From: Leifsonia sp. PS1209
Lineage (GTDB): Bacteria; Actinomycetota; Actinomycetes; Actinomycetales; Microbacteriaceae
Direction: 5' to 3'
Length of the DNA: 64,000 nt
Assembly: GCF_012317045.1 (NCBI RefSeq)
Contig: NZ_CP051154.1
Span: 2,418,001-2,482,000, forward strand
The notes under the pieces were generated by a model, which was given only the letters and a program-made list of their open reading frames with translations, did no database searches and was not told the DNA's origin. Made by a program: the position numbers and the translations under genes. Below are positions 6,319 to 36,186 of the stretch, in pieces. The stretch's first letter is position 1. Every line of letters begins with the position of its first letter.

Positions 6319-7020
6319 TTAACCGGGCTGCGGGCGATTCCCGGTAATGGCGGTGCCAATACGAAGGTGTGTCGCCCCTTCCGCGATGGCGTCCGCGTAG
6401 TCCTGCGACATCCCGGCGGAGATGCTCACCGCGTCCGGCGCGATGCGGCGCACGCGCTCGCTCGCCAGCAGGACGCGCTCGAACGCCCGCCTCGGCTGCT
6501 CGTCGATCGGAGCGACGGCCATCACACCGAGCAGGCGCAGCCCGGGTGTGGCGAGGACGTGGTCGACCAGCGGTTCGAGATCGCGGTCGGCGACGCCGCC
6601 GCGTGCCGGGTCGTCGGTGAGGTTGAGCTGCACGAAGCAGTCGACGTCCGACTCGTCGGAGCGCAGAGCATCCACCAGCGACACGCGGTCGACCGAGTGG
6701 ATGACGGACGCGTACGCACGCGCCTGCCTCGCCTTTTTGCTCTGCAGCTGCCCGACGAAGTGCCAGCGCAGGTCGAGGTCGGCGAGTTCCGCCGCCTTGG
6801 CCTGCGCCTCCTGGTGGCGGTTCTCCCCCACGTCGTGCACGCCGAGCCCGGCAAGCTCGCGCACGAGCGACGCCGGATGGAACTTGGTGACGACGATCGT
6901 CGTCAGTTCCTCCGGCGAACGCCCGGCGGCGCGGGCGGCATCGTCGATGCCGGCCCGCACGGCGCCGAGCCGCTCGGCGAGCGGGCTACTTGAGGAAGTC
7001 GGGGATGTCGAGGTCGTCAT
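6319..7020 (-). CDS. YggS/PLPBP family pyridoxal-phosphate homeostasis protein
   Basis: 233 aa alanine-racemase-N-like PLP-binding protein. The PLP lysine is in the motif [32 protein letters not shown] and the C-terminal phosphate-binding region [13 protein letters not shown] match the family. Members buffer PLP rather than catalyse a known reaction. The ATG start lies inside the 3' end of ftsZ (35-nt overlap), so the two genes look translationally linked. The laccase-like pgeF gene often found between ftsZ and yggS in Actinobacteria is absent here. Confidence 0.92.
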
Positions 7021-26231: not shown

Positions 26232-28148
<1,917 letters not shown>

Positions 28149-28155
28149 TCACGCA

Positions 28156-28217
28156 ATCGAGCCGGGACTTATGCACACTCGCGGACGGCGTGTCGCGTGC
28201 ATAAGTCCCGGCTCGAT
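28156..28217 (-). repeat. Extragenic palindromic repeat, copy 1 (perfect 21-bp stems)
   Basis: Perfect 21-bp inverted arms at 28156-28176 and 28197-28217 flank a 20-nt centre. It sits 7 bp after the kinase stop and 18 bp before the aroG stop (convergent genes). Read on the minus strand it shares 17 of 21 arm positions and the loop motif CACGCGACACGCCG with the copy at 36122-36186. There is no T tract, so it is not a classical terminator, although the transcript could fold strongly in both directions. Confidence 0.85.
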
Positions 28218-34741: not shown

Positions 34742-36058
34742 TCAGGCGCGGGTGGTGGGCAGGCCCTCGACCACCAGGGCGGCGAGCGTGCGCGCCGACT
34801 GCTTGGTCAGGGGCTTCAGGTCTTTGTACGACACGACGGAGCCCGCGGCCAGCTGCGGGTCGTACGGGATGCGCACGACGTCGCGGACGCGCGACAGGAA
34901 GTGCGACTCGATCTCCTCGAGCTTCACCAGGTTGGTTCCCTGGGTGGCTGTGTTGAGCGCCACGACGGCGTTCCTGACGAGGTCGCCGTAGCCGTTCGCC
35001 TCCAGCCAGGTCAGCGTCTCGGACGCGAGACGCGCCTCGTCGACGCTGCCGCCGGAGACGATCACCACGGAGTCTGCGCGCTGCAGGGTGGCCCGCATCA
35101 CCGAGTGGACGATGCCGGTTCCGCAGTCGGTGAGCACGATCGAGTAGAACCGGGCGGACAGGTCGGCGACCACGTTGTAGTCGTTCTCGTCGAACGCCTC
35201 GGAGAGCAGAGGGTCGGTGTCGGAGGCGAGGATGTCGAGCCTGGTCTCATCGCGGGAGACGAGGGCGGAGAAGTCGGTGAAGCCGCCGATGCTCGCGGCC
35301 TTGTGCACCACATCCCGCACCGTTGCACGGGTCTGCTTGGGGACGCGCTCCGACAGGGTGCCGCGGTCGGGGTTCGCGTCGATCGCGACGATGCGGTCTT
35401 CGCGGGCATCGGCCAGCGCCATCCCGAGCAGGGTGGTGACGGTGGTCTTGCCGACGCCGCCCTTGCGGGTGAGCACGGGGACGAAGCGCGTTCCGCCCTC
35501 GAACTGCTTCTGGATGCGGTGGTCGAGCTCCTTGCGGGCGCGCGCCTTGGCGGAGTCGCCGAGGTTGACCATCCGGAAGGTGACGTTGTAGACGAAGCGC
35601 TGCCAGCCGCCCTCCGGGCCGGGGCGGGTGTTGCGGTTGACCTCCAGCAGGCGGTCGGCGGTGAGCATGGCGGCCGGCTCCGGCTGCTGCGAGTGCTCGC
35701 CGCGCAGGCGCCCGCGGCGGGACTGCGAGAACGGGTCGGACGACGGCAGATCCGGCACGTCGCGCTGCGCGTCCTGGACCGAGTCCGCTGCGATGGTGCC
35801 GGTGGGACCGGTGGCGTGCCGGGAGGCGACGATGGCGACCGACATGGTGGTCGGCTCGGCGGGCGACGCGACGAAACCGGGGTCGACCGGGACCTCGTCG
35901 ATCGCGACGGCGGCCTCGTCCTCCGGCACCTCGGGCGCCGGGGCGGGCGGAAGGTCGACGGCGATGCTGAGATTCTCCGGAACCGAGATGGTCAGATCGT
36001 CGTCAGGCGACACGAGCGGCCCCGGTTCGGGGCGCTCGGGCTTGAGGTTGTCTGGCAC
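34742..36058 (-). CDS. Orphan MinD/ParA-like ATPase with disordered acidic N-terminus
   Basis: 438 aa. The first ~150 residues are Pro/Glu/Asp-rich and look disordered. A segment (about 150-190) precedes the ATPase domain, which starts with the deviant Walker [21 protein letters not shown]. Switch regions [11 protein letters not shown] and VLTDCGTG follow. This resembles MinD-like ATPases of actinobacterial secretion or positioning systems (EspI-like layouts), but no partner gene is adjacent. No ParB or ESX gene is nearby, so its cargo is unknown. The start is GTG 36056-36058. Confidence 0.75.
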
Positions 36059-36121: not shown

Positions 36122-36186
36122 CAATCGAGTCCGGACTTGTTCACGCGACACGCCGGGTGAAGCGTGAATAAGTCCGGACTCGATTG
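36122..36186 (+). repeat. Extragenic palindromic repeat, copy 2 (25-bp stems)
   Basis: Inverted arms at 36122-36146 and 36162-36186 match over 25 bp, with a single G/T position that would be a G-U wobble in RNA. They enclose a 15-nt loop. It lies 12 bp after the pyc stop and 63 bp upstream of the ParA-like start. It shares the loop motif CACGCGACACGCCG, in this orientation, and 17 of 21 core arm positions with copy 1. Stem differences between copies are compensated on the other arm. Confidence 0.85.

Follow-up and report, generated by a model that had tools for sequence, protein, structure and literature searches.

The hairpins of the window and their gene neighbors

The window, i.e., the whole analyzed stretch of 64,000 nucleotides from Leifsonia sp. 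PS1209, harbors two long hairpins, each located next to the stop codon of a protein-coding gene. The features of the two loci are as follows:

26232..28148, + strand: protein kinase with PASTA domains (PF00069, PF03793)
28156..28217: hairpin copy 1, loop motif (GACACGCCG) on the - strand, 23-bp stem and 16-nt loop
28236..29606, - strand: class-II DAHP synthase (PF01474), convergent on copy 1
34742..36058, - strand: tandem gene beyond copy 2, ParA/MinD-type ATPase domain (weak match)
36124..36184, + strand: hairpin copy 2, 23-bp stem and 15-nt loop
36199..39603, - strand: biotin-dependent carboxylase, pyruvate-carboxylase-like (PF02786, PF02436, PF00289, PF00682, PF00364)

The stop codon of the kinase gene is found 7 nt before copy 1, and the end of the class-II DAHP-synthase gene lies 18 nt from the same hairpin. 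Copy 2 is separated by 14 nt from the stop codon of the carboxylase gene (36199) and is located upstream of the start of the gene at 34742..36058. Copy 1 may alternatively be counted as 21 perfect pairs with a 20-nt loop, the 23 pairs including imperfect inner ones, and copy 2 extends over 36122-36186 if two extra pairs are added. The fold energies are about -47 and -48 kcal/mol for the two copies. An initial annotation of the window had described their arms as alike at 17 of 21 positions, with three of the differences compensated on the opposite arm and the fourth yielding a G-U pair, and a reading of both copies confirmed this description. A search of the window against Rfam gave a single match at the gathering threshold, mraW RNA (RF01746, 22126-22227, - strand, 54.3 bits, gathering 50), and none to the hairpins; in 15 sampled hairpin loci only sub-threshold matches were obtained, mostly to miRNA families.

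Family size, stem pairing and placement

The source genome (4,091,164 bp, one contig; here denoted G000) harbors 43 exact matches to the 14-mer CACGCGACACGCCG and 66 matches at up to one mismatch, as compared to 8 matches, also at up to one mismatch, when the pattern is read backwards. A covariance model built from ten copies (R1) gave 132 rows over the two strands, where most palindromes match both strands. From these rows 67 distinct places were defined after exclusion of one partial row of 17.5 bits, and two of them, at 261385 and at 497965, were discarded as matches by chance. The family thus comprises at least 65 copies in this genome, i.e., 62 that are full-length and three that are short or degenerate; the number is a lower bound because scoring covered the 150 best of 8444 first-look candidates. 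The family is therefore not confined to the two copies from which it was first proposed, and dozens of such hairpins of about 62 bases are found per genome across Leifsonia genomes.

The full-length copies are composed of a 23-pair stem and a 15-16-nt loop, which starts with GACACGCCG (exact in 53 of the 62). The edge of the stem is sharp, with 92% of the copies paired at position 23 and 48% at position 24, and the stem is longer than those of other intergenic hairpins of the same 240 kb in the source genome (17-25 vs 12-14 net pairs). An inner helix of length 4 or more between the motif and the variable part of the loop is possible more often than with shuffled letters, in 22 of 60 copies of the source genome vs 19% of the shuffles and in 10 of 24 loci of the Mycobacterium-like genomes described below vs 23%; an excess was seen in all sampled groups, and a small inner hairpin may form within the loop. 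One of the short copies (G000:C1:2567842-2567881, locus L096) has a 4-nt loop and no motif, while the corresponding site of a close relative from the same genus (G006) carries the full element, i.e., the short copy is a natural deletion of the loop or a replacement.

Pairing in the stem was evaluated in an alignment of 19 rows from 17 genomes of the genus, each row being either a copy from the source genome or a genome's best match to R1, trimmed to equal arms and with the more divergent copies of a first alignment omitted. In this alignment 21 of the 23 stem pairs vary on both sides, and 97% of the cells pair, vs 67% after shuffling and 23-45% in slid versions. The covariation observed between the two window copies thus persists when more copies are aligned. 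Within the source genome, the covarying stem positions are 5, 6, 11, 13, 15 and 17. Position 8 displays no covariation among 62 copies (A-T 17, A-C 15, G-T 11, G-C 9); because A-C mismatches are as frequent as A-T pairs, pairing at this position is not under selection, and the base is mostly a purine on either arm, independently of the other.

The placement of the copies relative to genes was determined by simple gene calling, for which the window served as training sequence, and a gene overlap of up to 15 nt was tolerated. Among the 65 copies of the source genome, 48 reside between convergent genes, 15 between tandem and two between divergent genes, and none is found inside a called gene. The distance to a stop codon is at most 25 nt for 57 of the 65. 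These data support, on the scale of the genome, the proposal that oriented extragenic palindromes follow directly after stop codons, as do the distances of 7 and 14 nt in the window. Two reading frames overlooked by the gene caller, beside the copies at 561006 and 1065043, both have their stop codons inside the hairpin; a hairpin copy can therefore supply the terminus of an ORF. The corresponding numbers for G006 are 46 convergent, 11 tandem and one divergent (n = 58), where the background in the same loci is 154 convergent out of 748 gene pairs (Fisher p about 1e-19). Copies in other taxa are also found mostly 3' of stop codons: 11 convergent, 12 tandem and one at a locus edge in Mycobacterium-like loci (n = 24); 9 convergent, 11 tandem, two divergent and one at an edge in another genus, g75 (n = 23). 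A fresh sample of 64 copies gave 39 convergent, 16 tandem, 5 divergent, two called inside genes and two at locus edges.

A reading frame of 356 amino acids (L010:1520-2590, - strand) is located between the inverted copies at 561006 and 562069 of the source genome and runs into both. Its homologues in G006 and in a further genome (G027) are likewise flanked by two copies at a spacing of about 1 kb. The reading frame was considered as part of a "mother element", an idea that was dropped because it has no Pfam match and the reading frames between other close pairs of copies look unrelated.

Turnover of sites and taxonomic reach

A comparison with G006 was possible for 48 of the 65 copies, i.e., those for which the orthologous site was found with both flanks. 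Forty of the 48 sites are occupied in both genomes (36 by the rule of the script, two where the G006 copy is cut by a segment edge, at 236504 and 562069, and two where the copy in the source genome is short or degenerate, at 2567842 and 3721948). At the remaining 8 sites G006 has no copy, although a remnant persists at one, and at one of the 8, as read by eye, only 5 nt separate the two stop codons. Conversely, the source genome lacks a copy at the sites of three G006 copies.

In the 36 shared pairs the flanks are on average 89% identical, and the arms match at 17.8 of 22 positions vs 17.2 when the pairs are permuted (p 0.017). The orientation is flipped in 8 of the 36. After two badly registered pairs had been dropped, the 27 unflipped pairs agree at 18.8 arm positions (p 0.005) and at 3.6 variable loop bases vs 2.2 by chance, whereas the 7 flipped pairs, with 16.9 of 22 arm positions and 2.0 variable loop bases, show no closer agreement than pairs drawn at random (17.8 and 2.2). 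Because the unflipped pairs are more alike than expected by chance and the flipped pairs are not, some copies are inherited, and at other sites a different copy appears to have taken the place of the former one. Insertions that arose independently at favored sites may be an alternative explanation. In other members of the genus, at least two of 29 tested copies share their site with the source genome, where the number is a lower bound based on nucleotide flanks.

The kinase of the window is 93% identical to that of Leifsonia sp. Root227 (NZ_LMIO01000003.1), and among 80 kinase loci a hairpin with the motif was found, at the threshold used, only in Root227; the rest carry other hairpins or none. 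A different long hairpin (GAAGGGCACGTCGT...) takes its place next to the orthologous kinase gene in Leifsonia shinshuensis and three relatives (L114-L117, near 6926-6965). Palindromes of yet another family, of the repeated TCCGTCCGAACGGAG type, occupy a convergent gap in G006 (L231, G006:C3 near 848800-848950) and are absent at the site in the source genome.

A covariance model built from the 19 rows of the genus (R2) matches 26 of 28 genomes of the genus, 30 of 398 of the family, 17 of 396 of the order and 8 of 396 of the phylum, where each number includes the source genome and where the best 13 candidates per genome were scored in the family, order and phylum searches (13 to 150 in the large searches overall, with rough E-values). 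Other genera, among them other Microbacteriaceae, have different stems with the same loop, though some of the inner arms (TGCACGC) are alike. The loop motif, C(G/A)ACACGCCG, recurs over lineages with differing stems.

In a genus of another family of the class (g190), R2 gave 157 matches, of which some are counted on both strands, distributed over 31 of 41 genomes. PPE proteins, which we take to be a mark of Mycobacterium, were found in all 8 of the g190 genomes tested, and the genus is assumed to be Mycobacterium. Here, the stem is often CGCGAGCAGACGCAAA..., the loop is the same and the hairpins are found at 3' ends; CGACACGCCG is exact in 14 of the 18 loci read (20 were fetched and two at contig edges were skipped). 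R2 itself rewards the motif, and a control model (R3) was therefore used in which nine loop bases are reversed. R3 gave 7 matches in 4 of the 41 g190 genomes, and in the genomes of the order outside the source genome it matched 4 of 395 vs 16 of 395 for R2. Because the reversed-loop model finds far fewer hairpins, the loop itself is enriched in them. In g75 (L195-L203, L412-L431) the arms are nearly identical among the copies of one genome and the last six loop bases vary, as though arms and motif were homogenized and the remaining loop was not.

Proposed role at transcript ends, probable spread and relation to known elements

The placement of the copies and the paired changes in their stems suggest that the hairpins function where transcripts of either strand end. 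We consider it moderately probable that the family represents a dispersed bidirectional 3'-end hairpin, i.e., a terminator, an insulator or a guard of the mRNA end, which has spread by some route and carries a constant loop that is read by a putative factor. As predicted from the sequence, transcripts of both strands would fold into a hairpin of about 23 bp that would terminate transcription or protect the 3' end, thereby insulating convergent genes, and copies that land in promoters, operons or genes would be purged, which would leave the 3'-end pattern. The constancy of the loop suggests a reader, either a termination or RNA-binding factor or an enzyme or repair pathway by which the element is copied.

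The family resembles intrinsic (Rho-independent) terminators in that a very stable hairpin is found directly 3' of stop codons, but differs from them in its conserved loop and in the lack of a clear U tract after the stem in most of the 65 copies. Over the 9 nt that follow the stem, the motif strand carries 1-3 T in 53 of the 65 copies and the other strand 2-4 T in 52 of the 65, with five or more in only 5 and 9 of the 65, respectively, which bears out the earlier remark that a T tract is lacking. Intrinsic termination is therefore not assured, and the hairpin may terminate, aid Rho or another factor, or guard the 3' end. Divergent placements, the two of 64 copies of the fresh sample called inside genes, the two stop codons that fall within hairpins of the source genome and the lack of selection for pairing at stem position 8 speak against this reading. 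At tandem sites of the source genome and G006 the motif is in the sense orientation in 15 cases and antisense in 11, and this absence of a preference is odd for a loop that is read as RNA. Tandem sites of other genomes gave 9 sense and 30 antisense (p 0.001, for a split chosen after the data had been seen), and the fresh sample alone gave 5 and 11, which is not significant (p 0.21).

A wider proposal, which falls somewhat short of being probable, is that of a loop code (CGACACGCCG, with the complement CGGCGTGTCG on the other strand) that would be read by a conserved factor throughout the Actinomycetia. Here, the stems would be lineage-specific and the copies at convergent ends would be swapped within a genome in either orientation, such that positions are inherited and contents homogenized.

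The initial annotation had offered selection on structure and a mobile family as alternatives, and both appear to apply. Mobility may also be taken as the whole explanation, i.e., the family would be a non-autonomous mobile hairpin with a loop recognized as DNA by a putative nuclease or recombinase, and its 3'-end placement would reflect tolerated insertion with no role in the transcript. This explanation accounts for the presence or absence of copies at sites compared between close relatives, for the apparent replacement of copies by others in either orientation, for the unbiased loop orientation in the source genome and G006, and for position 8, which is not selected for pairing. We nevertheless regard it as rather unlikely, since the copies are placed tightly at stop codons and not in non-coding DNA generally, and a partner gene was not found, with PF01797 in 0 of 28 genomes of the genus. 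Among the 126 proteins next to copies, no transposase family was seen in the 25 families shown of 243. With the queries used, viral contigs contained no exact match to one Leifsonia-type pattern and a blastn search with copy 1 gave no match in plasmids or phages, such that a phage, plasmid or viral carrier was set aside. Palindromic MITE-like small mobile sequences offer a comparison class. The family is similarly small, dispersed and present or absent between relatives (8 of 48 sites unoccupied in G006, three copies only in G006). In the sites read and among the 25 neighboring gene families shown, no larger element with shared ends was found, and the empty sites read revealed no clean target-site duplication.

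Template switching, a known mutational behavior of quasi-palindromes, could copy one arm onto the other and invert the loop, such that covariation and flips would arise by mutation with neither selection nor spread. The near-perfect arms would fit such a process. However, the 7 flipped pairs look like replacement and not like inversion, and simple loop inversion as the source of the flips was rejected because the arms of these pairs disagree; furthermore, dozens of dispersed copies would be left unexplained. As a full account template switching is very improbable, and it makes an added contribution at most.

The label "REP-like" given in the initial annotation holds by analogy: like REP elements, the hairpins are extragenic palindromes found dispersed in many copies at 3' ends with lineage-specific stem sequences. 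The REP elements of gammaproteobacteria, which are moved by a REP-associated tyrosine transposase (RAYT), have a short stem and a conserved flanking tetranucleotide, whereas the present family combines a nearly perfect hairpin of 62 bp with a conserved motif in the loop and belongs to a genus without the Y1 transposase domain. A search for Y1_Tnp (PF01797) gave matches in 0 of 28 genomes of the genus and in 5 of 14 control genomes. The strict REP/RAYT form is thereby refuted, barring an enzyme that has diverged beyond the reach of the Pfam model, and is given hardly any credence. Equally little credence is given to a double-stranded binding site for a chromosome protein, an idea prompted by arms reading TTRTKCACG, presumably close to a DnaA box, in many copies of the source genome (TTRTGCACG or TTRTTCACG) and by the independent purine preference at position 8 of each arm; the DnaA-box reading was rejected because this arm sequence is not conserved in other species (e.g., CACTTTCTCCCGC, AGTCCGCGAAGACTGCACGC), where the loop is conserved.

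The initial annotation knew of no named family with this sequence. No description of the Leifsonia hairpins or of the constant loop was found among the titles and abstract openings of the literature matches listed. The statement nevertheless requires a qualification, since the relatives in Mycobacterium (stem CGCGAGCAGACGCAAA..., same loop) are presumably a repeat of the TRIT type. Given that these relatives are probably the TRIT motif, the Leifsonia hairpins would probably represent, within the Microbacteriaceae, one branch of an actinobacterial family akin to TRIT. TRIT is reportedly a gene-terminus motif of Mycobacterium tuberculosis, described in the RNIE paper (Gardner et al. 2011). According to another study, a TRIT model proposed in the RNIE paper was applied downstream of candidate RNAs (PMC3526491). 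The likeness to TRIT is that of a structured hairpin motif at actinobacterial gene ends; the Leifsonia family differs in its unrelated stem, its location mostly between convergent genes and its number of about 65 copies in the source genome. The constancy of the loop over different stems and the replacement of copies are described here, and the link to TRIT is a putative one.

To our knowledge, actinobacteria have few canonical U-tract terminators, and the insulation of their convergent genes is poorly known. The hairpins probably act as signals at the ends of transcripts, and their copies probably also spread and take each other's place, with a ten-base loop signature that recurs in related hairpins as distant as those of mycobacteria. 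A loop that is constant over unrelated stems points to a loop-reading factor, which can be searched for directly, and inherited positions with replaced contents would constitute an unusual mode of repeat evolution that is testable in close genome pairs. A motif thought to be special to mycobacteria may thus be far more widespread.
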